This document shows, one piece after another, positions 1 through 22,258 of a stretch of 50,298 nucleotides of DNA. The first letter of the stretch is position 1. Every line of letters starts with the position of its first letter. Below the pieces are notes generated by a model that did not search any database, was not told the DNA's origin, and saw only the letters and a program-made list of their open reading frames with translations. Source of the DNA: a virus; IMG/VR virus record IMGVR_UViG_3300043410_000467, positions 1 through 50,298 of that record; one strand, written 5' to 3'. Both the position numbers and the translations under genes were made by a program.

Positions 1-250
1 TAACCCATGCTGCAAATTCTTCTAAGTTCTTATCCCAATAACAAAAGAAGCAACTAAATCCTAGAAATACTGTATCTTTGGATATTCTTTCTTTAGCGTA
101 TTCACGCAGTTCATTCTGAGTCCAGAATGGGGCCCATTCACAGACTTCACTGTCCCAACCTTGTTCCCTCAATAATGTTGCTATTCTATAAGAACCACCG
201 GGCCTAGAATGCCATTGGGTATGGCAATTAAAAATTAAACTATGATGCAT
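1..250 (-). CDS. Partial B12-binding radical SAM-type protein (N-terminus only)
   Basis: An ATG at 248-250 on the minus strand opens a frame that stays open to the left edge, giving about 83 residues of a longer protein. The visible part has a segment reading RPGGSYRIATLLREQGWDSE, then a W...W pair and an FLGFSCFF strand. This resembles the N-terminal cobalamin-binding (Rossmann-like) domain of B12-dependent radical SAM enzymes, which typically start with a 'G-x-YRIA-x-x-LR-x-x-G-x-x-x-EV' segment. The radical SAM core and its CxxxCxxC motif would lie outside the window, so the class is inferred from the N-terminus alone. It is divergent from the oxygenase operon at 298 and has a TATAAATA element upstream at 265-272. 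A cobalamin-binding domain of another enzyme is the main alternative. Confidence 0.5.
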   Translation of the reverse strand, partial: MHHSLIFNCHTQWHSRPGGSYRIATLLREQGWDSEVCEWAPFWTQNELREYAKERISKDTVFLGFSCFFCYWDKNLEEFAAWV

Positions 251-251
251 A

Positions 252-271
252 ATAAATATCTAGATATTTAT
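252..271. repeat. Perfect 20-bp palindrome in divergent promoter region
   Basis: The sequence ATAAATATCTAGATATTTAT is its own exact reverse complement. It occupies nearly half of the 47-nt gap between the divergent genes at 250 (minus) and 298 (plus), and overlaps the minus-strand TATAAATA. It could be a dimeric regulator site or simply two back-to-back AT-rich promoter elements. Confidence 0.7.
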
Positions 272-272
272 A
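265..272 (-). promoter_or_regulatory. Putative T4-type late promoter (TATAAATA)
   Basis: This is an exact match to the T4 late promoter octamer on the minus strand. It ends 14 nt before the ATG at 250, so a transcript from it would carry only a very short leader, unlike the 5-nt spacing at 5079, 7738 and 7763. It overlaps a 20-bp palindrome. Confidence 0.5.
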
Positions 273-297
273 GAATAAACTACTCAATACAACATTT

Positions 298-858
298 ATG
301 AACCACGTAATAGAACTCGATACCAATATACTTATTGAAAGTACTAAAAGACTTTGGGCTAAGTTTATAGATACTGAGTTTGAATACCTGAAGGGTGCTG
401 CAATAATTGACCATATTACACACGAAGGTGATGAGTTGATTGATATACATAGACAAGTGCCGTGGGTCACTGGTAAGATAGGATTCATTGCTTTAGAACC
501 CGGTGGCACATGCTGGATACACAAAGACAGACACGACGGATCTTACTATCAACGCTCATTGAATATAATACTAGAAAGCGACGGGGATAATCATACCACA
601 CGATATTATGATTATCTTCCGGGTAACTGGGATGAGAGTAAAAATCTATATGACGGTCCACTAAGTGATATCAAATTAAAGTTTGAATTTACCCTTAAAA
701 AGCCTACTGTATTCTTTAATCAAGACTTCCATGATGTATATAATTATGGAACTAAGCGTAGAGTTACGGCATTATGGTTAATTGATCCTAAAATTACAGA
801 TCAGGATATATTTGATTGGTGTACAGAAAACAATATACCACATAGAGTATTATTATGA
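298..858 (+). CDS. 2OG/Fe(II) oxygenase-like protein 1
   Basis: This 186-residue protein is predicted to have the double-stranded beta-helix fold of 2-oxoglutarate/Fe(II) oxygenases. The candidate metal ligands are H75 and D77 in 'WIHKD', with the distal histidine H145 in 'DFHDVYNYG'. R154 or R155 would bind 2-oxoglutarate just after it. Such small proteins are common in marine T4-like phages and resemble aspartyl/asparaginyl beta-hydroxylases; their substrates are unknown. It is the first gene of a three-gene operon of the same kind, and its stop overlaps the next start as ATGA. I see no strong Shine-Dalgarno sequence before the ATG. The fold call rests on motif order rather than overall similarity. 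Confidence 0.6.
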   Translation: MNHVIELDTNILIESTKRLWAKFIDTEFEYLKGAAIIDHITHEGDELIDIHRQVPWVTGKIGFIALEPGGTCWIHKDRHDGSYYQRSLNIILESDGDNHTTRYYDYLPGNWDESKNLYDGPLSDIKLKFEFTLKKPTVFFNQDFHDVYNYGTKRRVTALWLIDPKITDQDIFDWCTENNIPHRVLL

Positions 859-1424
859 AATACACTGATTATCAGTATTATCATTTGATTCCCGAAGTAT
901 TACGTATAGCACAAACAGAATTAAATGAATATCTATTAACACATGAACCCACAGAGTTTGCAGACCTGACATGGTTTGAACAACAATATGGACATGAGTT
1001 ACTAGAACGTGAGGATATGAAACGTTGGTATGCTGTACCTAATCTTAGAGCGGGAACTACAACTATATGGTCTGATAAGTTGCCTAAATTAACTGATATT
1101 GCAAAGACATTGCCCGGGATAGTTAATTTCAGTTTAAATGCGATTAGTCCTCATGGCCGTGTACCCACGCATTCAGACTATACATATGATATGCGTAAGG
1201 ACTTGAGTGGTGTAGACAGAGTTTATGTGATATTATTAGCTGTAGATATACCCGGAAAGAATATAGAAGAATGTGGGTTTCATATTGGGGATGAACAACT
1301 ATATTTACAGACTAACGACATTATAGCGTTTGACGGTATTAACCCGCATGGGGGCTGGAATAACACAGACAAATGGCGCTATACAATTAATATGGATTTA
1401 AAAGCGGAATATTGGAATGTTTAA
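855..1424 (+). CDS. 2OG/Fe(II) oxygenase-like protein 2 (Asp/Asn beta-hydroxylase type)
   Basis: This 189-residue protein has the best-formed active site of the local oxygenase set. H106 and D108 lie in 'PTHSDYT', H165 in 'INPHGGWNN', and R175 in 'KWRYTINMD'. The 'F-x-G-x-x-PHGGWN' segment and the arginine ten residues later match aspartyl/asparaginyl beta-hydroxylase-like phage proteins. It would couple 2OG decarboxylation to hydroxylation of an unknown protein or metabolite, releasing succinate and CO2. The start overlaps the upstream stop by 4 nt (ATGA). The end overlaps the next start through ATGTTTAA, so translation of the three genes is probably coupled. It is distinct from its neighbours in sequence, so this is not a recent tandem duplication. 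Confidence 0.65.
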   Translation: MKYTDYQYYHLIPEVLRIAQTELNEYLLTHEPTEFADLTWFEQQYGHELLEREDMKRWYAVPNLRAGTTTIWSDKLPKLTDIAKTLPGIVNFSLNAISPHGRVPTHSDYTYDMRKDLSGVDRVYVILLAVDIPGKNIEECGFHIGDEQLYLQTNDIIAFDGINPHGGWNNTDKWRYTINMDLKAEYWNV

Positions 1425-2016
1425 GTATATAGATAAACCACAAATACCTGACTATATTGTAGATATAATAAGAGAACAATATAAAGACCATACTGATACC
1501 AAAACATTAAGTGATTTTGATAAGATGAAAATCAATGATAGTATACAGAATGAAATCGACAAAGCGTATGGGGAGAGTAGTGAAGGTTTGGGCATGCCAT
1601 TTGAATACAGTAACACATACGAAGGTTTAGCGTCATTTACTATGATTAAAGCAGATGACCGTATAACTCAGTGGGTTAGAGATAATGTTACAGATGAACT
1701 AAATGGGGTGCATGTTCAGATTATAGACGGGAAGTATGTGTTCCCACATATAGATATGCTACGCAATAGAGCGTGGAATTATACGATTGACACCGGGGAC
1801 GCAAATACTTGTTTCTATGACGTAAGGCCCGAATATAGTCATTTGAAATTAAGCCCTAGAACTTATGTACCCTATGATAGGGTAATCGAAACTCATAGAT
1901 ATAAGATTGAAAATCATCGTTGGCATGAGTTAGCTGTCGATAAAATCCATAGTGTAGAAGATATTAAAGACGTTAGATTAGCGTTATCTATTAGCTTTGT
2001 TGATTCAACTCAGTAA
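1417..2016 (+). CDS. 2OG/Fe(II) oxygenase-like protein 3
   Basis: This 199-residue protein carries H111-x-D113 in 'FPHIDML', a distal H178 in 'DKIHSVED' and R187 in 'DVRLALSIS'. This is the H-x-D...H...R order expected for 2OG/Fe(II) oxygenases. The 'IHSVxx...R-L-x-L' end closely resembles that of the protein encoded at 7097-7738 ('IHSVNN...SRLLLQIG'), so these two are likely the same subfamily. The start lies inside the upstream gene (8-nt ATGTTTAA overlap). The 3' end overlaps the convergent aminotransferase gene by 26 nt, so read-through RNAs from either side would be antisense to each other. Substrate unknown. Confidence 0.6.
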   Translation: MFKYIDKPQIPDYIVDIIREQYKDHTDTKTLSDFDKMKINDSIQNEIDKAYGESSEGLGMPFEYSNTYEGLASFTMIKADDRITQWVRDNVTDELNGVHVQIIDGKYVFPHIDMLRNRAWNYTIDTGDANTCFYDVRPEYSHLKLSPRTYVPYDRVIETHRYKIENHRWHELAVDKIHSVEDIKDVRLALSISFVDSTQ

Positions 2017-3172
2017 GACATTTAGTTACCTTAGTGATTAAATCACTAAAATACTGGTCGTTAGCATTTAATGGTAGCATAATTAATATACCATTCTTAT
2101 AGTTATTCCATACTCCTATATGCAACCCATGCTTATAGAATAATTGTTCTTTCTCCCATAAATCATTTATGGGCTTGTTTAATAGTATGTTATAGCATAC
2201 CCCAAAATGTCTGTACCCTGTGATTAATTGTTGACTATATAATTGATTACATACGTTATTCATTTTATCAATAATAACCGTATAATTATCAAATATCTTT
2301 TCACGTTCTAGTATATCAAAGTATTCTAATGCGCTGATAATACCACTCATAGGAAAGCTATATGCAAACCCATGTAATAATACTTTAGGGCGCACAATAT
2401 CTGCTACCTTTTGATTGAATAATGTAGCACTTAGTGGAAAATATCCCCCAGTAATTCCTTTCCCTATACAGAATATATCGGGTTTAATAGGTAGTACTTG
2501 CCATCCAAAATGTGTACCTGTCTTTCCGTTACAGAATGCAATATCGTCTATAATCAATAACGCGCCTGTTTCGTCACAACGCTTTCTTAATTCATTATAG
2601 AATCTTCCGGGTAATAGTTCGATACCGTTCTGCCAACTGCATGTTTCAATGATTACGGCTAGTGTGTCGTTGTCTATCTTATCTAACTCAGTATAGGATA
2701 TAGTGACACAATCACTATGTTTACCAAACGTGTCAGTCAGATATGTGCTACCGCTTACACTAGCACTCATATATGTAGAACCGTGGTAACTATTTTCAAA
2801 CCCTATAATCTTGTTTCTATTAGAATATAGTTTGGCTATCTTTATCGCACCCTCAATACTGTCACTACCACTCATACTGAATATACTATGATACCCATTA
2901 CTTACTTCATATAGTTTTTCACTTAGTAAATCAACATAACGATTGGATGTAGCAAAATCGCTTTGACAAAATGGATTTTGCTTTAGTTTCTCACATACAC
3001 TATCAATAATATCAGTACGTCTAAACCCTAGTGGGAAGCACCCTGAACTACCCAATCCCAAGTCTAGTATATTAGTGTACCCATCCATAAAGCCGTAATC
3101 TGTTACGATTGTGCTTGTTTTAATATTAGGTGCAGGATTGTTTCTACTAAATGGGAATAAATGCTTATTCAT
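1991..3172 (-). CDS. Class III PLP-dependent aminotransferase-like protein
   Basis: This fold-type I pyridoxal-phosphate enzyme is related to class III aminotransferases (glutamate-1-semialdehyde or DAPA aminotransferase type). Visible landmarks in order are 'SMSGSDSIEGAIKIAK' (phosphate-binding), 'SYHGST', 'LLIIDDIAF' with the Asp that contacts the PLP nitrogen, 'IGKGITGG' with the Schiff-base lysine, and 'HGFAYSFPM'. All key residues are present, so it is probably active. I chose the ATG at 3172 (393 aa), which overlaps the radical SAM stop as ATGAATAA. The longer frame starts at 3223 and would add 17 residues and a 59-nt overlap. The enzyme follows a radical SAM protein in one operon, suggesting they act on a common substrate. 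The substrate cannot be told from sequence. Confidence 0.8.
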   Translation of the reverse strand: MNKHLFPFSRNNPAPNIKTSTIVTDYGFMDGYTNILDLGLGSSGCFPLGFRRTDIIDSVCEKLKQNPFCQSDFATSNRYVDLLSEKLYEVSNGYHSIFSMSGSDSIEGAIKIAKLYSNRNKIIGFENSYHGSTYMSASVSGSTYLTDTFGKHSDCVTISYTELDKIDNDTLAVIIETCSWQNGIELLPGRFYNELRKRCDETGALLIIDDIAFCNGKTGTHFGWQVLPIKPDIFCIGKGITGGYFPLSATLFNQKVADIVRPKVLLHGFAYSFPMSGIISALEYFDILEREKIFDNYTVIIDKMNNVCNQLYSQQLITGYRHFGVCYNILLNKPINDLWEKEQLFYKHGLHIGVWNNYKNGILIMLPLNANDQYFSDLITKVTKCLTELNQQS

Positions 3173-4472
3173 AACGTTTGATATATGGGAATAATCGTTT
3201 ATAATCAGTACCGCGCAATTCATCGTACATATCTAACACACGGGTACGCTCCTTACATACTTCAATAAAGTCAGGGGTATTTGCGTTCATATAGCCAGGA
3301 ACACTAGTTACACTTTCAGTAAACTCAGGGTTATCCCAGAATATCTTATAATCTCCATAATCTCTCATAAAATTATTAATACGCTCAGTAACCTCTTGTT
3401 TCTGCTCGGGTTCTAAGTATCTGAGGCTAAAGTAATTAGGATAATAGATTAATCCAAAGTTAATAACAAAACGCTTATTAGTACGATTACTAATGTTTTC
3501 CCAATGATGAAATATACTTTCAAAATCGAATATATTAAATATACCCCAGGTTGTGCTTAGTTTCTTTTCAATGTGTTCATATTCCCATAGTTTCTCAAAG
3601 TTTTCAGTGAATACATTATAATCTGCTGGGTATCGTATAAAGTTAAACTTCTCTGGGTCAATGTGGTCGTAACTAATACATAGCATAGGATATTTGAACT
3701 GATCCAATAATCCTATTGTTTTAGGATTGATAACGCTTAGATTAGTAATAATCTGTAGCATCATATTCTCTGCATAACCCTTCTCTACGCACTGTTCCAA
3801 TATACGTTGTGTGGTCTTGTTAACTAATGGTTCACCCCCGACTAAACTCATATGAATAGCTTGTTTTAAGCTAGGGTCTAAATTATTAACTACACGCTCT
3901 ACGTCTAAATTACGTGGATTAAAGCTGTCTAAATCTAGCTTTAATTCAATTACACGTTCATCAAACATTTTTAATAGTCCGGGTAATTGTTTACCCTCAC
4001 TAATCATTTGGTCCTGTTCTTCTTTATGTAATGAACTAGAGCCTGGGTAGCACATGATACACTTTAAATTACATTGCGTACCCACTTTCAAGTCTAAATC
4101 CATGGGCGGGGTACTTAGTGCTCCGTCGTTATTTAATGCGTCATTAATGAATATATCATAGTCCGGAAACATGTCGTGCTTTTCGTCATTAGTCTTTTGA
4201 CGCTTACTATATGCTCCTGAAGCCTCGTAATCCCAGCAGTATTCACAGCTAGGGTTCTTGACACCATTTAATAAGTCTTTACGCAATGTTTTATAGAAGT
4301 CGCTGTTCCATACTTCATCTACACTATCCACACGCATATTATAGCTAGAACCGTCGGGCTTTGTTATAATCTTTTCCTCGCTACAACAGCATACACGATA
4401 GTTTCCATCGTTTGTAGAACTAATGTGTGTGAAGGGTAATAAACAGAATGTGGGGTATTTCTTTTTATCCAT
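3165..4472 (-). CDS. Radical SAM protein with SPASM/twitch-like cysteine clusters
   Basis: This 435-residue radical SAM enzyme has the [4Fe-4S] motif C134-NLK-C138-IM-C141. An N-terminal cysteine-rich part (C10, C28-C30, C76, C79) looks like an auxiliary cluster domain placed before, rather than after, the SAM core. This layout matches the 'twitch domain' radical SAM proteins of large marine phages. The 'SLVGGEPLVN' segment is the usual GGE motif that binds the SAM amino group. The enzyme would cleave SAM to start radical chemistry on a peptide or small molecule. It is translationally coupled on both sides: ATGGATAA with the upstream kinase-like gene and ATGAATAA with the downstream aminotransferase. 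No precursor peptide gene is evident. Confidence 0.85.
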   Translation of the reverse strand: MDKKKYPTFCLLPFTHISSTNDGNYRVCCCSEEKIITKPDGSSYNMRVDSVDEVWNSDFYKTLRKDLLNGVKNPSCEYCWDYEASGAYSKRQKTNDEKHDMFPDYDIFINDALNNDGALSTPPMDLDLKVGTQCNLKCIMCYPGSSSLHKEEQDQMISEGKQLPGLLKMFDERVIELKLDLDSFNPRNLDVERVVNNLDPSLKQAIHMSLVGGEPLVNKTTQRILEQCVEKGYAENMMLQIITNLSVINPKTIGLLDQFKYPMLCISYDHIDPEKFNFIRYPADYNVFTENFEKLWEYEHIEKKLSTTWGIFNIFDFESIFHHWENISNRTNKRFVINFGLIYYPNYFSLRYLEPEQKQEVTERINNFMRDYGDYKIFWDNPEFTESVTSVPGYMNANTPDFIEVCKERTRVLDMYDELRGTDYKRLFPYIKRYE

Positions 4473-5052
4473 ATACTTTATTATAAATCTCGGGTAGTAT
4501 GTTTCCAGGCCAATGAATATAATTGTTAAATGCGTATTTTACTAGCATAGACATGTCTAATTTACCGTCAACAGATAATTCCTCAACTAATCGTAGTCTA
4601 TCTTCATTCAATATAGGCTTGTAGAAATCTATACTTATTGGTTGCTCTATATAACTACTGCATGAATAAAATGTGTACGCATGGATTTTGTCTTTATCGT
4701 CTACATAAAAGTACTTTGGATAGAAGCTAGGCTTATAGATTTGTTCCTTGTGTAAGTCTCTAACTATCTGTTCTAACTGTTCTTTATAGTCATTGGGCAA
4801 ACGTGATTCGCATGTATTATTGTACCATTTAAATATGATTTGTCTAGTCTTATAGTCTATAGATAATAATTCGGGCGCCCATGAATATTTTGTCAGTTTA
4901 GCACAATAGTGTGCTTCCCGATTAAAACTTGATTGTACTAATTGATTTGGGTAACGATTATTGTCTGGATTGAAATCCATGCAAAACTCTGTCTGTGAAT
5001 CATTGACAAGTGAGCGATATATACCCTTGGTATTTTCAACTTCTTTGAACAT
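4465..5052 (-). CDS. Kinase-fold-like protein A, probably catalytically degenerate
   Basis: This 195-residue protein is a paralogue of the one at 6417-7100. Both share an 'RE...APEl-x-IDY-x-x-R-x-I' segment, then 'Q-x-x-x-I-x-x-x-H' and a beta-hairpin block ('IYKPSFYPKYFYVD' here; 'IHKYSMHPSSYFIV' there). The order resembles the C-lobe of protein-kinase-like or aminoglycoside-phosphotransferase-like folds, where H-x-D...N and a later D are catalytic. Those acidic residues are not in place here, so a pseudokinase or binding role is more likely than phosphotransfer. This is a fold guess from pattern alone. It begins the operon with the radical SAM and aminotransferase genes, after a weak GCTAAATA late-promoter-like element just before the ATG. 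Confidence 0.45.
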   Translation of the reverse strand: MFKEVENTKGIYRSLVNDSQTEFCMDFNPDNNRYPNQLVQSSFNREAHYCAKLTKYSWAPELLSIDYKTRQIIFKWYNNTCESRLPNDYKEQLEQIVRDLHKEQIYKPSFYPKYFYVDDKDKIHAYTFYSCSSYIEQPISIDFYKPILNEDRLRLVEELSVDGKLDMSMLVKYAFNNYIHWPGNILPEIYNKVYG

Positions 5053-5065
5053 GACATATTTAGCC

Positions 5066-5073
5066 TATAAATA
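5066..5073 (+). promoter_or_regulatory. T4-type late promoter TATAAATA, 5 nt from ATG
   Basis: An exact TATAAATA octamer ends 5 nt before the ATG at 5079. In T4 the late octamer spans about -13 to -6, which places transcription start on the A of the ATG. No Shine-Dalgarno sequence fits between them, so the mRNA is predicted to be leaderless. Confidence 0.75.
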
Positions 5074-5078
5074 AAAAT

Positions 5079-5624
5079 ATGAAATTAATCGGCAACACTG
5101 AGAATAAAATAGATTGGGATAGTATTATCGAATCCTGTAAAACGGATAGCAAACATGTACTAAGATTCAATGAAGAATGTTTCCCCAAGACTGAAGCCTT
5201 TGAAAATATGGGTAGACTGTGGAAAGAGCGTGGATATGTTTATAATGACCCAACAATTGAATGGTTTAACTATTTCCCCGGTGAGCATTTCAGTCAAAGT
5301 GTCGTAGATACGTTTGAATCTATTGTTGATACTAAACCCTGGATGGTTTGGATTAGTAAAATAAAGCCCGGACGAATGGCTCCGTGGCATATTGATATAC
5401 ACAGCAAAATAGACTTGTTATTAGAGAAGGGTGTTCCTGTTAGATATACCTGCTATATTGAAGATTATAGTATGGGGCATGTAAGTATTGTAGGGGACAC
5501 TTGTGTATATCAGGCCCCTAAGGGAAGCATATATCAATGGGATTTATATGATGAATGGCACTGCGGGATGAACGGTGGATTCACGGACAAATATATGTTT
5601 AATTATTGGGGATATAAAGATTAG
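5079..5624 (+). CDS. 2OG/Fe(II) oxygenase-like protein 4
   Basis: This 181-residue protein contains H104-x-D106 in 'PWHIDIH', H161 in 'DEWHCGMNGG' and 'DKYMFNYWG' after it. The order is that of 2OG/Fe(II) oxygenases of the aspartyl/asparaginyl hydroxylase type. The position usually held by the 2OG-binding arginine appears to be lysine (K171), a conservative but notable change. A single-gene transcription unit is likely: TATAAATA lies 5 nt before the ATG, and the gene ends against a convergent gene, with the two stop codons overlapping (TAG at 5622-5624 and TAA on the other strand at 5621-5623). Substrate unknown. Confidence 0.6.
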   Translation: MKLIGNTENKIDWDSIIESCKTDSKHVLRFNEECFPKTEAFENMGRLWKERGYVYNDPTIEWFNYFPGEHFSQSVVDTFESIVDTKPWMVWISKIKPGRMAPWHIDIHSKIDLLLEKGVPVRYTCYIEDYSMGHVSIVGDTCVYQAPKGSIYQWDLYDEWHCGMNGGFTDKYMFNYWGYKD

Positions 5625-6424
5625 TATGTGTCTAAATGACTAATACCTAATTTGTTTCTAAATTCTTCTGTAAACTTCCCGTCAATTCTTAATCCGTATG
5701 TCTGAGCCATGACTCTGTTACCACCGTGCCAGTCAACGTCATTCCACCAGGCTGCTCTACAGTTAATACCATACTTCATTTTCTTTTCAGGATCCCATAG
5801 ATAGAATTGATTACGTGTATCGGGGCGAATATGTATAAACTCGTTACGATGTGGCATTACTACGTTAACCCCATTCTTTCTATCTAAATCTCTATGTTCA
5901 AAGGGTATTCCGTCGTGCTCTAAATGAAAGAATATAACACGACCAATATGCTCAAATAGTGTACCCTTTAATTGTAATACCCATTCAACTACACTAGGGA
6001 AATACTTACTTTCTGGGGTCATTTGACGTTCGCCCGGTCTATCGTTCCAATCACCTTCTTCCCATAGATAATAATAGATATATGGGTCATAGGCATTTAA
6101 TGCCATTTTTAAATATCGTGTGAATATATTGCGTTGTTGGAAGTTCTTAAAGTCTGTGGGCAATAGTTTTAATCCAGCTATTTTAATAGGATCATCATTA
6201 CTTAACTGTTGAAACTCTTCCCATGCTTGATATATTGGCTTCCAGTTATGTATATAACTCATGTCCTCGAACGTAAAGCCCGGGGCCATCCATGTACCTT
6301 CTTTAGCATATTCACGTGCTAATGCAAAGCCCGACATAATCTCGGGCTGTAGCGTGTCAAATGTGTCCATATCTAAGTATGGCGTCATGTCAAAATAGGG
6401 TTGATTATTAATACCTTTAATCAT
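5621..6424 (-). CDS. 2OG/Fe(II) oxygenase-like protein 5 (long form)
   Basis: At 267 residues this is the longest of the oxygenase-like proteins. An N-terminal helical part of about 150 residues (rich in Y and W, with 'YIYYYLWEEGDW') precedes the jelly-roll. The jelly-roll shows H177-R-D179 in 'PFEHRDLD', H233 in 'DVDWHGGN' and R246 in 'YGLRIDG'. 'WHGGN' followed by 'LRIDG' is a typical ending for this phage family. The start overlaps the upstream kinase-like gene through ATGATTAA, so the two are probably translated together. The stop overlaps that of the convergent oxygenase gene. Pairing with a kinase-like gene mirrors the kinase-like/radical SAM pair at 3165-5052. Confidence 0.6.
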   Translation of the reverse strand: MIKGINNQPYFDMTPYLDMDTFDTLQPEIMSGFALAREYAKEGTWMAPGFTFEDMSYIHNWKPIYQAWEEFQQLSNDDPIKIAGLKLLPTDFKNFQQRNIFTRYLKMALNAYDPYIYYYLWEEGDWNDRPGERQMTPESKYFPSVVEWVLQLKGTLFEHIGRVIFFHLEHDGIPFEHRDLDRKNGVNVVMPHRNEFIHIRPDTRNQFYLWDPEKKMKYGINCRAAWWNDVDWHGGNRVMAQTYGLRIDGKFTEEFRNKLGISHLDTY

Positions 6425-7100
6425 TTAATATCTTCTCAATAAAATCTTGTGGGTAGTTTGTTCTAAAACTCTCCCAACATAACTTGTCAAATAGTTCCCA
6501 AGGTTGCGGTTCAGTCCAGCTTATTCCTAGTGATTCTAAGTATTTACGCATCTCTACTCTACGATTTTCATGTATATGACTCTCAACTTCTCGAATAGTG
6601 ATATTTGTTTCGTATTTACCATATGTGAAGAAATAGTTAATACTCTTTAATTTATTGTTAACTATGAAATAACTTGAAGGATGCATGCTATATTTGTGAA
6701 TGCCCAATACTTTATGTACATTAATAATATCTGTCATTTGCTTACGCCAATTGGGTAATACTGTATCATAGTTATTCAAATCGCAATTAGCTTGTTGCCA
6801 GAAGTCTACTCCGTCAATTTCTAAGTATATCTTGCGTTCGTTATAGTCTATATCTAGTATATTAGGTATATGTGTGGGTGCTGTACTATGCATCAATTTT
6901 AGAAACTTTACCTCACGTTCCCATTTCTCATCCATTTTACCAGGGTCGATAACTTCATTGTGACCCTTGTGATAATCAGTATCGTTATAATACCATTGCA
7001 CAAAAGTTTTTTTATCTTCTGATATCAAACTGGTATAGATTAGATTATTACGACATTTACCTATGTTAGGTACGTCATTATAGTAGTATTCATACTTCAT
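6417..7100 (-). CDS. Kinase-fold-like protein B, probably catalytically degenerate
   Basis: This 227-residue protein is a paralogue of the protein at 4465-5052, with the same order of blocks: 'WEREVKFLKLM', 'IPNILDIDYNERKIYLE', 'WRKQMTDIINVHKVLGIHKYS', and 'YFIVNNKLKSINYFFTYG'. In kinase-like folds the H-x-D catalytic loop and the metal-binding DFG-type aspartate would fall in the last two blocks; here I see H-K-Y and N-Y-F instead. That suggests loss of phosphotransfer activity or a different activity. Start and stop are both coupled to neighbours: ATGA with the oxygenase gene upstream and ATGATTAA with the oxygenase gene downstream. Function is unknown; the kinase-like assignment is tentative. 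Confidence 0.45.
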   Translation of the reverse strand: MKYEYYYNDVPNIGKCRNNLIYTSLISEDKKTFVQWYYNDTDYHKGHNEVIDPGKMDEKWEREVKFLKLMHSTAPTHIPNILDIDYNERKIYLEIDGVDFWQQANCDLNNYDTVLPNWRKQMTDIINVHKVLGIHKYSMHPSSYFIVNNKLKSINYFFTYGKYETNITIREVESHIHENRRVEMRKYLESLGISWTEPQPWELFDKLCWESFRTNYPQDFIEKILND

Positions 7101-7738
7101 TTTTTATTGACGCCAATTTGCAATAAAAGTCTACTACCTGTTAAATTGTTTACGCTATGAATTCTTTTACCAACTAACATTCCCCATGTATGCTCTTTTA
7201 ATAGAGATTCGCCGGCTAGTTCAATTTTAGTATAATCATAAGGTGCAGCAACTATTAGCATCTTACCAATATGTTCTTCTTTAATATCATAAATCTTAGT
7301 AATAACATTGTCTCCACCGGCTTCAACAACAAAGTTAAAGACATAATCCACTGGATCTATATGCGGTAATAATATTGTTCCATCCGACAGTTTACATAGA
7401 TTGGGTTCTATAAACGTATACCCATCTCCCATCGTTTCGGTTAAGAATGGAATAGCATTTTCTTCTACCCACTTGATAACATCTTTGGGTGCAGTTAACA
7501 ATGAAAACTTTACCGGAGTTTCAGGGGTTGACCAAATATACTCATAAGCATCCTCTGGAGAGGGGAAATTAAATCCATCATTGGGCCATTCACCTGGTAC
7601 ATCATAACCAATCGTATCACAAAAATCTTTTTTATTATCTACGAATACATTGTAGAAAGGTGGTTCTTTAGATGCTTGAATACACGATGCTATTAATTCA
7701 TCTGGTAGTATGGGTAAATTAATCAATTGATAGCTCAT
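7097..7738 (-). CDS. 2OG/Fe(II) oxygenase-like protein 6
   Basis: This 213-residue protein has H126-x-D128 in 'LPHIDPV', H194 in 'RIHSVNN' and R203 in 'SRLLLQIG', the full set expected for a 2OG/Fe(II) oxygenase. I place the start at the ATG at 7738 rather than 7780. An exact TATAAATA (7744-7751, minus strand) lies 5 nt before it, and the 14 extra residues of the longer frame would be encoded within and beyond that promoter. The ending resembles the protein at 1417-2016, so the two are likely the closest relatives in the set. It heads an operon of oxygenase 6, kinase-like B and oxygenase 5. Substrate unknown. Confidence 0.6.
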   Translation of the reverse strand: MSYQLINLPILPDELIASCIQASKEPPFYNVFVDNKKDFCDTIGYDVPGEWPNDGFNFPSPEDAYEYIWSTPETPVKFSLLTAPKDVIKWVEENAIPFLTETMGDGYTFIEPNLCKLSDGTILLPHIDPVDYVFNFVVEAGGDNVITKIYDIKEEHIGKMLIVAAPYDYTKIELAGESLLKEHTWGMLVGKRIHSVNNLTGSRLLLQIGVNKK

Positions 7739-7743
7739 TAAAA

Positions 7744-7751
7744 TATTTATA
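7744..7751 (-). promoter_or_regulatory. T4-type late promoter TATAAATA, 5 nt from ATG (minus strand)
   Basis: An exact octamer on the minus strand ends 5 nt before the ATG at 7738. It overlaps the plus-strand octamer at 7750-7757 by 2 nt inside TATTTATATAAATA, so two divergent promoters are interlocked. A leaderless mRNA is predicted. Confidence 0.75.
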
Positions 7752-7757
7752 TAAATA
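7750..7757 (+). promoter_or_regulatory. T4-type late promoter TATAAATA, 5 nt from ATG (plus strand)
   Basis: An exact octamer ends 5 nt before the ATG at 7763, the same spacing as at 5079 and 7738. It shares two bases with the opposite-strand octamer at 7744-7751. A leaderless mRNA is predicted. Confidence 0.75.
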
Positions 7758-7762
7758 CCCGT

Positions 7763-8458
7763 ATGGTCAATTATTTGCACGAAACCAAAACTCCCTTTGA
7801 TAACTGTTATAATCGTTGGCGCGAAACTAGAGTAAACAAACTAATTTCATTTTTTGGTAATGATTGGACCGGTAAAAGAGTATTAGAATTGGCATGTGCA
7901 TATGGCAATATAGGGTTACATCTCAAAAGTTTAGGGGCTGATGTAACGTTCGCTGATGCTAGACAAAAACATTTAGATATTGTTTTACATAAGGACAATA
8001 CTGCAAAGACTATATTGTTAGACCAAGATAACAACTGGAATCTAAATGAAAGTTTTGATATTATCATACACTTTGGTGTATTATACCATTTAGATAACTG
8101 GCGCAGAGATTTACAATGTGCAATAAATCATAGTAATATTATCGTACTTGAATCTGCTGTAGCTGACTGCGATTATGAGTTTGAGTATAAACTAACTGAA
8201 GAAGATGAGGATGGTGAGAATGCGTTCAATACTATTGGAACCGTTCCCTCTGCTAAATCAATAGAATCTTGGTTGTCTGAACTAGATTGCAGTTATACTA
8301 GATTTGACGATAGTGATTTAAATACAAAATGGTTTAATTATGATTGGGTAGTGACGAACCCTGATTTATCAAATATAGTTGTTAAAACGTTCGAGGATAA
8401 ACCATTATACGGCGGGCGTAGGTTCTGGTTAATCAACAAGTCTCCATCTATCAGCTAA
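7763..8458 (+). CDS. SAM-dependent methyltransferase (class I)
   Basis: This 231-residue Rossmann-fold methyltransferase has motif I as 'VLELACAYGNIGLHL', an acidic end of strand 2 in 'ADVTFADAR', and the post-motif region 'FDIIIHFGVLYHLDNW'. The last block is typical of small-molecule or sugar methyltransferases of the UbiE/Methyltransf_11-23 kind. The C-terminal 'GGRRFWLINKS' is also seen in that group. It is probably transcribed alone from the late promoter 5 nt before its ATG. Its last 30 nt overlap the convergent oxygenase gene at 8429-9043. Substrate is unknown; its position inside the oxygenase/radical SAM island suggests it modifies the same class of target. Confidence 0.75.
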   Translation: MVNYLHETKTPFDNCYNRWRETRVNKLISFFGNDWTGKRVLELACAYGNIGLHLKSLGADVTFADARQKHLDIVLHKDNTAKTILLDQDNNWNLNESFDIIIHFGVLYHLDNWRRDLQCAINHSNIIVLESAVADCDYEFEYKLTEEDEDGENAFNTIGTVPSAKSIESWLSELDCSYTRFDDSDLNTKWFNYDWVVTNPDLSNIVVKTFEDKPLYGGRRFWLINKSPSIS

Positions 8459-9043
8459 GTAGTAAGATGCTTGGTGTACATGCATAGATATAGCGATCCT
8501 AGTATCTTCGATTGTCTGTTCATTGACTTCATGCCACATGAAACCAGGCCATGCTAGTAACTGACCTTCTTGTGGGTAGATAGTTATTGATTTTTGTTCA
8601 TACGGTGCCATTCCCGTAGACAATTCGAAAGGGTTATATAAAGTAATACTACTTGAGCCTGGGGGCACTTTATGATAATACGTCATTACCATTTCAGTAG
8701 AACTATGTGCGTGGCTGCGTAATCTAGATCCTTGCTTGAACTGATTAATCCAAGACCGTTCAATAGCAAGTGCAGTTGGGGCATAACCTATTTCTTCCCA
8801 CATTTTATATACTATATTTTTTAACCAGAACTTCAATGGTTTCATTGATTCTAAGTTAATTATGTCAGGCAAAACCCTGAGTGTAGTATCATGATCTCCG
8901 GCGGCAGTTTCTAATTTTCTGTTATCAGGCACTGATTCAAATATATCTGTTATCTCTTTTAGAAAATCCTCACCCAGTAAGTGTTTATCTTCCCAAAAGG
9001 TAGATGCTATTTTTATGGGGAAAACTGTCTGGCTCGTAATCAT
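8429..9043 (-). CDS. 2OG/Fe(II) oxygenase-like protein 7 (TIGR02466-like)
   Basis: This 204-residue protein has 'SWINQFKQGSRLRSHAHSST' (candidate ligands H111 and H113), 'YPQEGQLLAWPGFMWHEV' (H171) and 'EDTRIAISMHV' (R182). The pattern closely follows the conserved phage and bacterial 2OG-oxygenase-like family with an N-H-x-H-x-x-S motif, a P-x-G-x-L turn and a final R-I-S-x-S strand. H-x-H replaces the classic H-x-D, as in other members of that family. It is convergent with the methyltransferase gene (30-nt overlap) and divergent from the GNAT-like gene, sharing a 23-nt gap with no exact late promoter. Substrate unknown. Confidence 0.65.
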   Translation of the reverse strand: MITSQTVFPIKIASTFWEDKHLLGEDFLKEITDIFESVPDNRKLETAAGDHDTTLRVLPDIINLESMKPLKFWLKNIVYKMWEEIGYAPTALAIERSWINQFKQGSRLRSHAHSSTEMVMTYYHKVPPGSSSITLYNPFELSTGMAPYEQKSITIYPQEGQLLAWPGFMWHEVNEQTIEDTRIAISMHVHQASYYLADRWRLVD

Positions 9044-9066
9044 ATCAGTAAATACTTATCGCTTAT

Positions 9067-9609
9067 ATGACATACAAAATTATTCCATGGTCTACTGATT
9101 TAGACCTTTCTAATTTTTATAGTGAAGCCGATAAAAGAGGCTTTACAAACAATAGTAGCCAACAGGCTATGATAGATTGTTTTAAAAATGAACGTGAATG
9201 GAACGTATGGGTATTGTATTACAATGATATTATTGTGGGTAGTGTTGCGGCACATTCTATTGACGAAGGATATAGGATATGCGCTAGAACATGCGTACTT
9301 ACAGATTTACTACCAACAACTACTGTACGCACACGCAACCAAATAGTCACACATCAGCACGTGACTGCACAGTTTTTCATGCCCGCGTGTATTGAATGGG
9401 TGGGTGACAAAGATATGTACATTACTACCCACCCCAGTGACACTGGTACCCAACGATTAGTACATAACATATGGGCACCCAGTCTAGTTAAGACTGGGGT
9501 ACTAAGTAAAGCATTTGAAAAATACTATAGAGGTCATTTACAAACGTTTTGGAAGTTGAATAAAGATGTATTCTTAAGTCAATTAAAACGTTATGAACGA
9601 TGGGTTTAA
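9067..9609 (+). CDS. GNAT-like protein of unknown function
   Basis: This 180-residue protein starts with 'DLSNFYSEADKRGFTNNSS', then 'WNVWVLYYNDIIVGSVAAHS'. The second segment resembles the central beta-strands of GCN5-type acetyltransferases ('w-x-v-x-x-x-g-x-i-v-G-x-x-x'). Similar proteins occur in marine T4-like phages without an assigned role. I do not see a clear Q/R-x-x-G-x-G/A acetyl-CoA loop, so activity is uncertain. It is convergent with the FkbM methyltransferase gene, and the two stop codons share the bases TTAA at 9606-9609. An AGTAAATA octamer at 9047-9054 is a weak late-promoter candidate, 12 nt before the ATG. Confidence 0.4.
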   Translation: MTYKIIPWSTDLDLSNFYSEADKRGFTNNSSQQAMIDCFKNEREWNVWVLYYNDIIVGSVAAHSIDEGYRICARTCVLTDLLPTTTVRTRNQIVTHQHVTAQFFMPACIEWVGDKDMYITTHPSDTGTQRLVHNIWAPSLVKTGVLSKAFEKYYRGHLQTFWKLNKDVFLSQLKRYERWV

Positions 9610-10481
9610 AATATAATTTTATATGATGTTAACCGTTTGACCATGTCGTTGTATGATTCGCCAGACATAACTTCAACTAAATCAGTTGGTTGTTCATTTT
9701 CTGAAGGAACGGCTAAGATATTACTAACTCCACCGTCACCGAATGGATTGGCTTCATTTGTTTTAAACGTAGGTCCTAATGGTTTTGTTCTGCATGTAAC
9801 CCAATATTGTCTATAGTCACGTGTATCTAAAAACTCGTAACACTCTGCCCAATCATCTACACTGATTGCTTCATAGAATATTACTGGACGAAACTTTTTA
9901 ATAGTCTTGACAGCGCCCTTAAGTACATCAAGTTCTGCGCCTTCTACATCAATCTTCATTAATGTACATTTTTCTAGGTTAAATGAATCTAGTTTCTTTA
10001 ATGGTACTTTGATAACATCTTCAATATCATCAGTAATTGTAGTCAAATCTCCATAATTGCCGGATGCGTTTTCATCAAAGTTCTTTAGTTCTATACTACC
10101 TGTTTTATTACCTAATGCAGTATGATACAATAGAATGTTCTTATCCTGACAATTGTACGCGGCTACACAAAAATGACTGGGATGTGGCTCAAAAGCCATT
10201 ACGTTGCATCCTACCTCTTGATTTATAGCCCTAGCGTGATATCCGATATTTGTGCCAATGTCTAAGTATAGTGAATCTTTGTCTAAGTATCTGGACATAA
10301 TTTTAATCTCAGCGTGACAGTATTCACCAAACAATGCGATTGATTGACTTACAATTTGGTCATTTTTGTATATAATAAAATCACCTACTAAGCTATCTGT
10401 TTTAGCCAAAGAGGGTGCTAGTTTTTCAAAATATTCATTCAATGATGACTTGGTTTCTTCGGGTTGTTGAGTGTTTTCCAT
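9606..10481 (-). CDS. FkbM family methyltransferase
   Basis: This 291-residue SAM-dependent methyltransferase shows motif I 'LYLDIGTNIGYHARAI', 'VMAFEPHPSHF' at strand 2, and the signature 'LMKIDVEGAELDVLKGA' followed by 'FRPVIFYEA'. These define the FkbM family, whose members O-methylate sugars or polyketide-like products. The N-terminal 60 or so residues precede the core domain. In phages such enzymes often accompany glycosyltransferases and may decorate glycans. It follows the SleB-like gene after a 38-nt gap. GATATATA, two changes from TATAAATA, lies exactly 5 nt before the ATG, so it may have its own late promoter. Confidence 0.85.
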   Translation of the reverse strand: MENTQQPEETKSSLNEYFEKLAPSLAKTDSLVGDFIIYKNDQIVSQSIALFGEYCHAEIKIMSRYLDKDSLYLDIGTNIGYHARAINQEVGCNVMAFEPHPSHFCVAAYNCQDKNILLYHTALGNKTGSIELKNFDENASGNYGDLTTITDDIEDVIKVPLKKLDSFNLEKCTLMKIDVEGAELDVLKGAVKTIKKFRPVIFYEAISVDDWAECYEFLDTRDYRQYWVTCRTKPLGPTFKTNEANPFGDGGVSNILAVPSENEQPTDLVEVMSGESYNDMVKRLTSYKIIF

Positions 10482-10486
10482 ATAAC

Positions 10487-10494
10487 TATATATC
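10487..10494 (-). promoter_or_regulatory. Candidate degenerate late promoter (GATATATA)
   Basis: The minus-strand octamer GATATATA matches TATAAATA at 6 of 8 positions. It is spaced exactly 5 nt from the ATG at 10481, the same register as the three exact promoters. No Shine-Dalgarno sequence is visible for this gene. Confidence 0.35.
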
Positions 10495-10519
10495 TAGGAA
10501 AACTCTAATTTAAAAGTTT

Positions 10520-11050
10520 TTACTTACGATAGAATATATGGTTACCTATTTGCTTAACCTTTTTGTAGGGCCACATAGGATCGACATGCAACGCATGGAA
10601 GAATACTACGCTACGTGGTAGCAATTCTTTATGTGAATCATGTGCCAATACATCATACGCAATACCCAATGCTCTTACATAGTCTGGGCTGTTAGGTGGA
10701 GGCAATGGCTTATGTTCACATACCCAACTGAACTGGCACACTTGTGTCTTACCCTTGTCTGGTGTGGTCTTTTGATATACGACCTTGCAGGGTGTATTGG
10801 CGAAGCCTTGCTTAACACGGTTCATTACGACACGTGCTACAGCATATTGACCCAATAAGGGTTCTTTTCTAGCTTCATGGTATATGTTTGTAGCTAGACA
10901 TTGTAATTGTTTTGTATCTACTTTTACCGCATTAGCTAAATCAATACCATGTACTGCTAATGTATCTATTTTTGGATTTGGTGTTATCATTAATCCAATC
11001 AATAGTAACGGTAGTAATAACATAAACTTCAAAGTTTGCACTTTTACCAT
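10520..11050 (-). CDS. SleB-like cell-wall hydrolase (endolysin candidate)
   Basis: This 176-residue protein has a basic start followed by a hydrophobic stretch, 'FMLLLPLLLIGLMI', that looks like a signal anchor or signal peptide. A Hydrolase_2/SleB-type catalytic domain follows. The typical landmarks are present: 'LATNIYHEARKEPLLGQYAV' with the catalytic Glu of 'YHEAR', 'ARVVMNRV', 'CQFSW' and 'RSVVFFHA'. SleB-type enzymes cut peptidoglycan glycan strands. I chose the ATG at 11050 over the upstream start at 11077 because AAAGGAAA lies just before it. The gene follows the spike/virion genes and probably serves lysis, with a signal-arrest or exported route across the membrane. A virion-borne entry enzyme is possible. 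Confidence 0.8.
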   Translation of the reverse strand: MVKVQTLKFMLLLPLLLIGLMITPNPKIDTLAVHGIDLANAVKVDTKQLQCLATNIYHEARKEPLLGQYAVARVVMNRVKQGFANTPCKVVYQKTTPDKGKTQVCQFSWVCEHKPLPPPNSPDYVRALGIAYDVLAHDSHKELLPRSVVFFHALHVDPMWPYKKVKQIGNHIFYRK

Positions 11051-11076
11051 TTTGTTTCCTTTCGTTGGGGTATACA

Positions 11077-11094
11077 ATTATACACCCATTTATA
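11077..11094 (-). promoter_or_regulatory. Candidate promoter upstream of SleB-like gene
   Basis: In the 68-nt gap before the hydrolase gene, the minus strand reads TATAAATG (11087-11094, one change from the late octamer) and then TATAAT (11077-11082). Either could start a transcript with a 20-30 nt leader containing the AAAGGAAA ribosome site. No matching -35 box is clear. Confidence 0.35.
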
Positions 11095-11118
11095 TTTATT
11101 TGCTAGATTTTTGGGTAA

Positions 11119-13146
11119 TCATAGCATATCCCAGCAGTCACAGTTACATAGTATAACATCTGCGATAGCTTCTTCGGGTGTCAATATTGTCTGCCCTGCT
11201 GTAGTTGTGACAATACTGAGATTGGGCGGGATTAGTGTGGTTTCTTTGGAACCTGCTAAACTTCCCGGTACGATTGCCGCACCAGTTATAACTGGCGTAT
11301 TAGCAATTTTAGGGCTAACGTCATATCCTTCATTAGGACTGGTGCCCGGTGTATATGGACTTTGTTTGGGTAGTATTAACGGGTCGCCAGTAACGTCATT
11401 GTCTAATACTGCTCCAGTTAATGCTAAACGTGAACTATTTCTAGCTTCACGCAATGCACCTATTAAACTATTAGCTGACGTAGGGTCTGCAATGTTTTCT
11501 AAGAACGGGGCCATACCACCTACTGCTGTCTCATTGCCGTAAGTTCCTATACTATCTATAAAACTTACAACATCAGCCGGAGTGCTAGTTAAATCAGCGA
11601 TTCCTGGCAATGCTAGTGCCCTTGCATCTAACTCTTTTTGTATATACTCAGCTATGGTTGCGTATGTACTAATTAGATTTCTTACGTCCTCTGTATCCGT
11701 TCCCAATATCGCTATGATTTCAGCATTAGCCTGATCTATATAACCTTGTAAATCATAATAAGGTCCGGGCCCGTTCAACAATGAGAACATTTGAATATAT
11801 GTACTGGTTAACGAACTTGTCTGCACTTTAATTAGTAACTCTTGCAACTGCTGCCATGGATAATGCAAATCTGTCATTGTACCAAAGAAATCAAACATAG
11901 TGTAAGTATCGTCAACACCAGATCCCTTTGCTATGATACCATATGCCGCACTAGCTAATGTTGTGTTAGTGGGGACGTTAGTGCCATTTACTCCTAATCC
12001 ATTAACGTTTTCCAAATTCATTACAACTTGCGAAAACTTCTCAATACTCATTGCTTGAATATTCTTAATTTGTAGCATAGATATGCTAAAGGCTTCTGCC
12101 GCATATGCAATGTCTGCTGGAATGATACTTCTGTATTTGTCACCTATGCCTAACCCAGGTTTAATATCAACAGTACCGTTGGAGTATATTAAATGATATG
12201 TTTTGCTATTTGTCGGTAATGGTATTGCGTTGAATGTTGGGAAGGTTAGTGATGCATAACTGTTAGGGAACAATACTTTAGGATTCAATAAATCAGCTAA
12301 CGTAGTTGCAGTTGCTTGGAAGTTTAACAATGTACACACATCTGCTAAGTCATTATTTGTAATAATACAGAAAGCACCGTACATTAATTTCTGCTGTTCT
12401 TCTGTTGCACGTTGACCACTAAGAATAGTATTGATATCTGACGCATTCAATCCTGCACTTAACAATGCTAAGTTAACTGCTTTGGTTAACGCATTATTTT
12501 TGTTTAATGTGCGTAATAAATTATCAGGATAGCCGAAGTCTTGCATTGTCGTTAAGTCAATTGCTCTACCACTCGCAATTAAATCCTGACCCCAATAGAA
12601 TGTACTTAAGTTGACCCCTGTAATATCTCCCGATATCAGGTCATTCATATTACTGTAAGTACCATCTAAAAACGTTTTAGATTTAGATAGCGCGGCAATT
12701 GTGCCATTTAACTGTGTTTTCTTACCGTAACACGTATTAATTGTGCTTAAGAAATCACTATAGCTACCGTTGTTAATATAAAAACTCTGATAAGCTGACC
12801 ATGGTGCTAAACGCAAGAATCCATAGCTAGTCATCTCATCTGTATAAGTTAGATTAGTAAAGAACGTTGGTGGGCTATTACCTAATGCAGGAATAGTATT
12901 AGATCCTATGTGAATAAGATTGTCATAAGTTAATGCAGATACGCCCGGCTCATTAATTAAGTCATATGCTAAACGAATAGATTGTGACAAATATCCCAAA
13001 CATGTAGTACTTACTACGGACCCCGGTGTATATGTAGCTTCATCAACACTTGTACCCATGTAGGCTGCCGCATTAGGATTAATGCGTAAACCTATATTTT
13101 GCAACAGTGTACCCATTGCATTAATTTGTAATGGACTATAACTCAT
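11119..13146 (-). CDS. Large protein of unknown function, probable virion component
   Basis: This 675-residue protein has no family I recognise. It is rich in T, N, S, A and L, without a signal peptide or clear membrane segment, and reads as an all-helical scaffold with short loops. Its C-terminal 100 residues are low in structure and proline-rich ('LPKQSPYTPGTSPNEGYD'), ending in a cysteine cluster, 'CNCDCWDML', which could bind metal or crosslink. The start overlaps the PAAR gene by ATGA, so the two are translationally coupled, and it precedes the lysis gene. That context suggests a tail-tip, spike-associated or injected protein. It shows no RCC1 or LamG repeats. Confidence 0.6.
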   Translation of the reverse strand: MSYSPLQINAMGTLLQNIGLRINPNAAAYMGTSVDEATYTPGSVVSTTCLGYLSQSIRLAYDLINEPGVSALTYDNLIHIGSNTIPALGNSPPTFFTNLTYTDEMTSYGFLRLAPWSAYQSFYINNGSYSDFLSTINTCYGKKTQLNGTIAALSKSKTFLDGTYSNMNDLISGDITGVNLSTFYWGQDLIASGRAIDLTTMQDFGYPDNLLRTLNKNNALTKAVNLALLSAGLNASDINTILSGQRATEEQQKLMYGAFCIITNNDLADVCTLLNFQATATTLADLLNPKVLFPNSYASLTFPTFNAIPLPTNSKTYHLIYSNGTVDIKPGLGIGDKYRSIIPADIAYAAEAFSISMLQIKNIQAMSIEKFSQVVMNLENVNGLGVNGTNVPTNTTLASAAYGIIAKGSGVDDTYTMFDFFGTMTDLHYPWQQLQELLIKVQTSSLTSTYIQMFSLLNGPGPYYDLQGYIDQANAEIIAILGTDTEDVRNLISTYATIAEYIQKELDARALALPGIADLTSTPADVVSFIDSIGTYGNETAVGGMAPFLENIADPTSANSLIGALREARNSSRLALTGAVLDNDVTGDPLILPKQSPYTPGTSPNEGYDVSPKIANTPVITGAAIVPGSLAGSKETTLIPPNLSIVTTTAGQTILTPEEAIADVILCNCDCWDML

Positions 13147-13424
13147 GGGACAAAAACGTCTGGACTACCTTGTACGATACTATGACCACAACTATTGCCT
13201 GAGCCTACTCTGAGAACAGGAGCTCCTTCTGCAAATACAGTAGGACTCCCATCAGTAGTTGTAGCTGAGGCATGAGGGGGATGAGGTTTACCCCAAGGTG
13301 CGTGAGGAGTTATAGGACTAACATGTAACCCTACTTTGATACCATTACTGAACACGGTTCCTGCACCTCTTACGATTGCACCACCGGGTTGATTTGTATC
13401 TCCTACACGACTTAATGCTGCCAT
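13143..13424 (-). CDS. PAAR-domain spike-tip protein
   Basis: This 93-residue protein matches the PAAR family. It has a start-proximal 'RVGDTNQPGG', then 'GAGTVFSNGIKVG', 'GSPTVFAEGAPVLRVGS' and 'CGHSIVQGSPDVFV'. The repeated 'GSPxVF' and 'RVG' elements form the small cone capping the membrane-piercing spike of contractile tails, with a metal ion held by His/Cys residues. It is full length for the family. GGATAAT before the ATG provides a ribosome site (AGGA). It lies between the Sm-like and the 675-aa genes and overlaps the latter by 4 nt. This is the clearest structural evidence for a contractile-tailed phage in the window. Confidence 0.85.
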   Translation of the reverse strand: MAALSRVGDTNQPGGAIVRGAGTVFSNGIKVGLHVSPITPHAPWGKPHPPHASATTTDGSPTVFAEGAPVLRVGSGNSCGHSIVQGSPDVFVP

Positions 13425-13425
13425 A

Positions 13426-13728
13426 TTATCCTAATATAATCTTTTTATCTGGAATCTGGATACCAGTTGTAGCTTCGATGTATTTCATCTTAATACTATC
13501 TTCAGTAATAGCAAAGATAGCAACACTATTAGTATTTAGTGTAACGTCACCGCCAGGATCTGCGGTAAACATACTAGGAATCATTTGCATTCCCTTTTGT
13601 CCGGGTGCAATACTAACGGGTTCTGAAATTGTTACATATCCATTATTATCTAACGCTGTAACTTTAGCGATGAGTTCTTCACCGCTATTCATTTTGAATG
13701 TGTATACTTGTCCTACTTCTAGTGTCAT
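13426..13728 (-). CDS. Sm-like small phage protein
   Basis: This 100-residue protein starts 'VGQVYTFKMNSGEELIAKV', which matches the Sm1-type strand pattern (five-stranded SH3-like barrel), followed by 'VTISEPVSIAPGQKGMQM' and a conserved end, 'YIEATTGIQIP'. Homologous proteins are widespread in T4-like marine phages and annotated as Sm-like or hypothetical; an RNA-binding role is assumed, not shown. The ATG shares one base with the glutaredoxin stop (TAATG), a coupling junction. Despite its place beside the PAAR gene I would not call it a structural protein. Confidence 0.65.
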   Translation of the reverse strand: MTLEVGQVYTFKMNSGEELIAKVTALDNNGYVTISEPVSIAPGQKGMQMIPSMFTADPGGDVTLNTNSVAIFAITEDSIKMKYIEATTGIQIPDKKIILG

Positions 13729-13958: not shown

Positions 13959-13969
13959 TATTATTCTCC

Positions 13970-15073: not shown

Positions 15074-15074
15074 A

Positions 15075-16301: not shown

Positions 16302-16310
16302 TTTGGTCCT

Positions 16311-19081: not shown

Positions 19082-19095
19082 CACGAATGTACTTA

Positions 19096-19803: not shown

Positions 19804-19805
19804 TG

Positions 19806-22194: not shown

Positions 22195-22209
22195 GTATTT
22201 TGTCCTTTA

Positions 22210-22225: not shown

Positions 22226-22258
22226 CTACTTATTCTAAAGAACTGCTACCAAATAATT

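Follow-up and report, generated by a model that had tools for sequence, protein, structure and literature searches.

Seven 2OG/Fe(II) oxygenase-like genes within a radical SAM-rich tailoring-enzyme island of uncultured T4-like phages

Why would a virus carry seven genes for 2-oxoglutarate (2OG)/Fe(II) oxygenase-like proteins within 9 kb, and what would such enzymes build? The question is raised by the IMG/VR virus record IMGVR_UViG_3300043410_000467, positions 1 to 50,298, i.e., the whole 50.3-kb stretch analysed here and called the window. Radical S-adenosylmethionine (SAM) enzymes and 2OG enzymes rank among the most powerful catalysts for C-H functionalisation. An earlier note had placed seven such oxygenase-like proteins at positions 298-9043 and had read the region as a multi-step modification system. 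All seven open reading frames (ORFs) were found (Table 1; g1 to g13 denote ORFs of the window, and G004_n the n-th gene on contig G004). The observation was confirmed in part, and its interpretation was supported in part. The seven genes are predicted 2OG/Fe(II)-type oxygenases on the basis of residue conservation, Pfam matches or homology, and AlphaFold (AF2) models of g3 and g8.

The metal triad H-x-D/H...H was kept in every family alignment, g12 being the H-x-H version. The residues given in Table 1 were kept in all aligned relatives of g1 (4/4), g2 (3/3), g3 and g10 together (11/11) and g8 (38/38), and in the orthologues of g12 (3/3). In the g7 family, the triad was present in 40 of 40 members. 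The basic residue, found 8-14 positions past the distal His, was an invariant Arg in g1, g2, g3/g10, g8 and g12 and a Lys in g7 (K171 in 35/40); the earlier note had seen an Arg in six of the seven proteins.

Counting of HxD..H..R motifs was rejected as oxygenase evidence. The loose motif H-x-[DEH]...H...[RK] was matched by 21-64% of shuffled versions of each protein. In a related jumbo phage, it was present in 14 of 20 proteins of the island and in 25 of 99 proteins elsewhere. Because the motif alone is near chance and uninformative, the oxygenase assignment is carried by conservation and structure.

In domain searches, g2 matched PF05118 (E 6.5e-9) and g12 matched PF13759 (E 7.7e-12). The AF2 model of g3 reached a predicted local distance difference test (pLDDT) score of 84 and gave 232 Foldseek matches at E <= 1e-3, its neighbours being PHD2, P3H, cis-P4H and FIH, together with cupin seed proteins, which belong to the same fold class. 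For the g8 model (pLDDT 76), the top Foldseek matches in the PDB were 2OG oxygenases, i.e., proline cis-4-hydroxylase, ALKBH5, T7H and PHD2 (E 4.5e-4 and weaker), and those in BFVD were phage and giant-virus Asp/Asn/Pro hydroxylases (best E 7.7e-6). Judging from these models, the nearest folds to g3 and g8 appear to be free-proline and Asp/Asn/Pro hydroxylases, i.e., protein and amino-acid hydroxylases. The structure prediction that the earlier note had proposed was carried out for g3 and g8, and put both proteins in the fold space of prolyl hydroxylases, cis-P4H and AspH. Evidence for a jelly-roll (double-stranded beta-helix) comes from Foldseek for g3 and g8, with low TM-scores for g8, and from the profile matches for g2 and g12.

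The remaining genes were approached by homology. g10 was homologous to g3 (BLAST E 8e-11), and its start is probably near 7738, not 7780, according to the family alignment. No Pfam match was detected for g1, which aligned to the g3 profile with an hhalign probability of 84%. The g7 family matched PF13640 in 2 of 40 members (best E 0.0019), and a deeper g7 profile gave weak 2OG matches in the PDB (E 0.7-0.9). With shallow alignments of g1, g3, g7 and g8 as queries, profile searches of the PDB returned no significant match, and g2 showed no significant link to the other families in profile-profile comparison. Matches of g3 to GH94 and other weak Pfam entries fell below the curated cut-off and were dismissed as chance. 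The support is therefore tiered: g2 and g12 by Pfam, g3 and g8 by AlphaFold and Foldseek, and g10 by homology to the modelled g3. The least secure of the seven appear to be g7, with its weak family-level matches, and g1, with its conserved residues and the g3 profile link. The earlier view that the genes form an assembled set, not a tandem array, was largely right, except for the homology between g3 and g10 and the relation of g1 to both.

The set runs well past both the 9 kb first proposed and its borders, since positions 298-9043 are a fragment, i.e., the right-hand end, of a tailoring-enzyme island of about 30 kb. A near-identical 28-kb contig, G004, adds 20.7 kb leftward (window position 298 corresponds to 21035 of G004) and alone contains 11 radical SAM matches. 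The composite of window and G004 has about nine 2OG-type genes, i.e., the seven of the window, G004_4 with a weak PF13640 match, and G004_16, in which HxD..H..R was seen by eye only. A syntenic island with 15 radical SAM matches was found in the T4-like jumbo phage contig G001 (331,570 bp), where 14 of the 15 cluster at 240-271 kb and the remaining, weak one lies at 276.6 kb. Contigs G002 and G003 carry another version of the island, with 12 radical SAM matches in G002. Among the radical SAM proteins are B12-binding-type proteins and members of the N-twitch family NF033640, against which G004_9 and G004_13 scored 313 and 409 bits, respectively (cut-off 170). Accessory genes differ between versions: a tryptophan-halogenase family protein (PF04820, E 3e-88), a carbamoyltransferase (PF02543/PF16861), and QueC-like PP-loop, SDR-like, SGNH-like, TauD-like and amidinotransferase-like proteins, several of them recognized by eye.

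A pattern and tblastn scan with the g8 alignment detected 371 g8 relatives in viral contigs. The best 80 of the 371 were fetched and are 69-100% identical. No g8 match was found in 50,697 phage records. A pattern scan, which can miss distant relatives, likewise gave none across 84,980 prokaryotic species genomes; g2 and g10 also had no match in the phage record collection. Among 88 viral loci, some of which share a contig, g8 co-occurred with a g7-type gene in 84, g9 in 83, g13 in 75 and g6 in 68. The radical SAM families G004_9, G004_19, G004_11, G004_13 and G004_20 accompanied it in 70, 69, 66, 56 and 53 loci, respectively, and the median locus had five CxxxCxxC radical SAM ORFs and six 2OG-family ORFs. 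Thus g7, g8, g9, g13 and radical SAM families 9, 11, 13, 19 and 20 are a core that recurs together in most of the 88 loci. An independent scan with g13 detected 194 viral relatives, some in contigs of 270-358 kb. The T4-type capsid gene (PF07068) was found in G001, G005, G006 and G008; the carriers are T4-like phages, often jumbo, and hundreds of uncultured ones have the island. An Mtd_N fibre domain was found in flanking proteins adjoining the island at three tested loci, and fibre-like 'RRG' starts were found in 25 of 85 loci.

Other enzymes are placed between the oxygenase genes. The PLP aminotransferase and the methyltransferase named in the earlier note were recovered as g4 and g11. Of its two radical SAM proteins, only g5 is complete, and it is the sole CxxxCxxC protein inside the interval; its motif, CNLKCIMC, starts at residue 134, and it is 78-80% identical to counterparts in other phages. 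The other is an N-terminal fragment cut by the window edge. The two kinase-like proteins, g6 and g9, are indeed related to TTK, as their family profile matches TTK/MPS1 kinase (E 5.6e-5), but active kinases were ruled out. Ser (Ser138) occupies the catalytic HRD Asp position in 25 of 25 aligned sequences, and the DFG Asp is replaced by Asn in 23 of 25 and otherwise lost, whereas the alpha-C Glu is retained. From their sequences, g6 and g9 are predicted TTK/MPS1-like pseudokinases and core genes of the island. They most likely act as scaffolds or regulators, not as phosphotransferases.

Table 1. Predicted genes at the right-hand end of the island, in window coordinates
Feature	Position	Strand	Evidence and remarks
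B12-binding-type radical SAM protein, N-terminal fragment	1..250	-	cut by window edge; 100% identical to G004_20 (522 aa, whole gene with radical SAM domain)
g1, 2OG/Fe(II) oxygenase-like	298..858	+	H75xD77, H145, R155
g2, Asp/Asn/Pro-hydroxylase-type 2OG oxygenase	855..1424	+	H106xD108, H165, R175; PF05118
g3, 2OG/Fe(II) oxygenase-like	1417..2016	+	H111xD113, H178, R187; AF2/Foldseek
g4, pyridoxal phosphate (PLP) class III aminotransferase	1991..3223	-	PF00202 E 2.5e-42; matches solved class III transaminases
g5, radical SAM protein with N-terminal SPASM/twitch domain	3165..4472	-	NF033640 280 bits (cut-off 170); PF04055, PF13186
g6, TTK-like pseudokinase	4465..5052	-	catalytic Asp to Ser; aligned with g9 family; in 68/88 loci
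g7, 2OG/Fe(II) oxygenase-like	5079..5624	+	H104xD106, H161; K171 where R is usual; in 84/88 loci
g8, hallmark 2OG/Fe(II) oxygenase-like protein, 267 aa	5621..6424	-	H177xD179, H233, R246; AF2/Foldseek
g9, TTK-like pseudokinase	6417..7100	-	Ser at HRD Asp, Asn at DFG Asp; in 83/88 loci
g10, 2OG/Fe(II) oxygenase-like, g3 homologue	7097..7780	-	BLAST to g3; ligand residues shared with g3
g11, class I SAM methyltransferase	7763..8458	+	PF13489 E 5.2e-13
g12, 2OG-FeII_Oxy_5 family protein, H-x-H metal motif	8429..9043	-	H111xH113, H171, R182; PF13759
g13, GNAT/FeeM-like acyltransferase candidate (weak assignment), island core	9067..9609	+	weak Acetyltransf_1 and FeeM matches, best E 0.03-0.04; in 75/88 loci
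FkbM-family methyltransferase, island edge	9606..10481	-	PF05050 E 1.3e-19; in 7/88 loci

Beyond the island, a cell-wall hydrolase (10520-11077, minus strand) and a PAAR-motif spike-tip protein (13143-13424, minus strand) lie before the nrd genes. An isocitrate lyase family gene, i.e., a glyoxylate-cycle-type enzyme in a phage, was predicted between nrdB and nrdA (15075-16301, minus strand; PF00463, E 1e-104). Two giant adjacent ORFs lie on the minus strand, 22259-35350 (4363 aa) and 35350-50298 (4982 aa or more, as it runs off the window). Both have RCC1 repeats with LamG-like domains, with 116 PF00415 matches.

The island is a phage tailoring island that pairs radical SAM chemistry (anaerobic-type C-H) with 2OG chemistry (O2-dependent C-H). 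Two TTK-like pseudokinases and a GNAT-like protein accompany it, as do variable PLP, amidinotransferase-like, PP-loop ATPase, halogenase, methyltransferase and SGNH-like enzymes. The recurrence of this island, with a core conserved over 88 viral loci, supports the proposed multi-step modification system. We favour, tentatively and at somewhat short of an even chance, that the oxygenases belong to an island that builds, in the course of infection, a heavily modified decoration of amino-acid or aminosugar type. The enzymes would act in sequence on one such scaffold, and the 2OG enzymes, whose nearest folds are the free-proline and Asp/Asn/Pro hydroxylases, would hydroxylate or otherwise oxidise its unactivated carbons. 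The product may be displayed on the envelope of the infected cell or on the phage's own fibres, where it could alter receptor recognition or superinfection. Sequential modification and display are proposed because fibre genes stand beside some loci, neighbours are of glycan type (glycosyltransferase- and carbamoyltransferase-type genes), enzymes of amino-acid type are present (PLP transaminase, QueC/PP-loop-like ATPase, weak FeeM/GNAT), and the host-recognition region of pelagimyophages harbours radical SAM cassettes (PMC7029224).

Several points weigh against this proposal. No substrate, product or transporter was identified, no search for exporters having been made. The conserved core is without a recognisable glycosyltransferase, and a PDB profile search with the DxD glycosyltransferase-like G004_1 gave no match. 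Fibre-like proteins are seen beside the island in just a minority of loci. Low TM-scores (about 0.3) were obtained for the g8 model, and individual folds diverge. No acyl or peptidyl carrier protein domain (PF00550) was found in the 8 contigs searched, so any assembly would not be carrier-based. Co-localisation also does not prove one pathway. Finally, SPASM/twitch radical SAM enzymes more often act on peptides, which makes a protein substrate a live rival.

According to that rival, the island modifies a protein, either a structural protein of the phage, e.g., a tail fibre or a giant RCC1/LamG protein, or a protein of the host. Its side chains would be altered by the SPASM/twitch radical SAM enzymes and the Asp/Asn/Pro-type hydroxylases, and no classical precursor of a ribosomally synthesized and post-translationally modified peptide (RiPP) would be involved. 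The N-terminal SPASM/twitch family, the hydroxylase folds nearest to g3 and g8, and the fibre genes adjoining some islands agree with this rival. However, no PqqD-like RiPP recognition element (RRE, PF05402) was found in 8 contigs, the control being positive in 3 genomes, and no conserved small ORF was found among 85 loci. A classical RiPP cluster is therefore disfavoured; the earlier note, too, had seen no precursor. RCC1 repeats were detected in only 1 of 14 other island contigs tested (G008), and their absence from 13 of 14 rules out the giant proteins as the general substrate. Modification of a protein is considered somewhat unlikely but a serious alternative. Another reading takes the product as a diffusible small molecule, i.e., an amino-acid-derived natural product or signal poisoning competitors or manipulating the host. 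The aminotransferases, the halogenase, the amidinotransferase-like protein recognized by eye, the GNAT/FeeM-like core gene and the PP-loop ATPase would suit it, as would the modules of radical SAM and amidinotransferase genes in Campylobacter phages CP220/CPt10 (PMC2853527). With no carrier protein in 8 contigs, which disfavours a non-ribosomal peptide or polyketide synthase (NRPS/PKS)-type pathway, and with weak GNAT/FeeM matches, we regard it as rather unlikely.

Nucleobases, one of the targets raised in the earlier note, can be substrates of 2OG oxygenases. Hypermodification of phage DNA or tRNA bases would also be in line with a QueC-like protein (phrog_1550, E 2e-4), PTPS/QueD-type genes in G001 and G002, and QueE-like scores of radical SAM proteins. 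However, searches with working controls found no thymidylate-synthase-type enzyme (PF00303) in G001 and G002 and no tRNA-guanine transglycosylase (TGT, PF01702) in 8 contigs, and the G001 island lacks the QueC-like gene. No Tet/JBP match was found in a search that had no positive control and is not interpretable. The enzymes required for thymidine or 7-deazaguanine DNA modification were thus not found in the contigs tested, and base modification is highly improbable. Still more improbable is a gathering of unrelated auxiliary metabolic genes in a plastic region without a shared pathway. Hyperplastic regions are found in T4-like phages, and 1-5 2OG oxygenases per genome are common in cyanophages (PMC3037559), but here a specific core recurs in most loci. 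Viperin (pVip) was also rejected; any radical SAM protein tested scored at most 57.5 bits against NF038283 (cut-off 180), and PADLOC viperin matches cover only the shared radical SAM core.

The existence of 11-15 radical SAM and about ten 2OG enzymes in one island is exceptional for a virus. Because the core is widespread in metagenomic phages and its hallmark g8 is found in no annotated phage record, it represents a large, unexamined piece of phage biology. A bolder proposal, which we hold as possible and speculative, is a phage-only pathway common to hundreds of uncultured T4-like phages, in which radical SAM and 2OG enzymes, about ten of each, on pseudokinase scaffolds would make a chemically unprecedented decoration of the infected cell's surface, the virion or a host protein, without bacterial counterpart.

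The present core is described in no paper found in literature searches, and known systems resemble it in part. In Bdellovibrionota chromosomes, N-twitch radical SAM mini-cassettes place relatives of G004_1, G004_2, G004_7 and G004_13 side by side, those of G004_13 being up to 48% identical, whereas g8, g9 and the greater part of the 2OG set went undetected in these chromosomes. Three Bdellovibrionota metagenome-assembled genomes (MAGs; L124, L125 and L134) each encode a DxD glycosyltransferase-like protein and three island-related radical SAM proteins at around 8-14 kb of the respective locus, and many N-twitch radical SAM paralogues are found per genome. About ten island-type radical SAM genes stand in a row at 1-18075 of a MED685 MAG contig (L162), binned as Gammaproteobacteria and possibly a mis-binned phage. 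The 255-kb record of Vibrio phage K566 (L123) has a small radical SAM cluster of distant N-twitch relatives at 16705-23441 and 33017-34072, with NAD-metabolism genes in the region.

Among phages, marine cyanomyoviruses have several small 2OG-Fe(II) oxygenases, 1-5 per genome, and a tryptophan halogenase (PMC3037559), as PF04820 halogenases occur in some versions of the island. They differ in number, against about 9-11 oxygenases in one island here, and the phage collection has no match to g2, g8 or g10. In pelagimyophages, radical SAM cassettes lie within the host-recognition (tail-fibre) region (PMC7029224), and the marine T4-like TARA_ERS488813_N000010 has 12 radical SAM genes (PMC5332604). 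These are likewise T4-like aquatic phages with many radical SAM genes, but the passages on both mention no 2OG/pseudokinase core. Campylobacter phages CP220/CPt10 (PMC2853527) have 11-12 radical SAM genes per genome and an exchangeable module of 10-12 genes, five of which encode radical SAM proteins and one an amidinotransferase; no function was assigned to it. Their richness in radical SAM genes and the amidinotransferase are shared with the present island; 2OG oxygenases are not mentioned in the passages on these phages. The island described here is about threefold larger and is found in hundreds of contigs. The question raised for CP220 in 2010, i.e., the reason for the many radical SAM genes of phages, becomes testable through this defined and conserved core.

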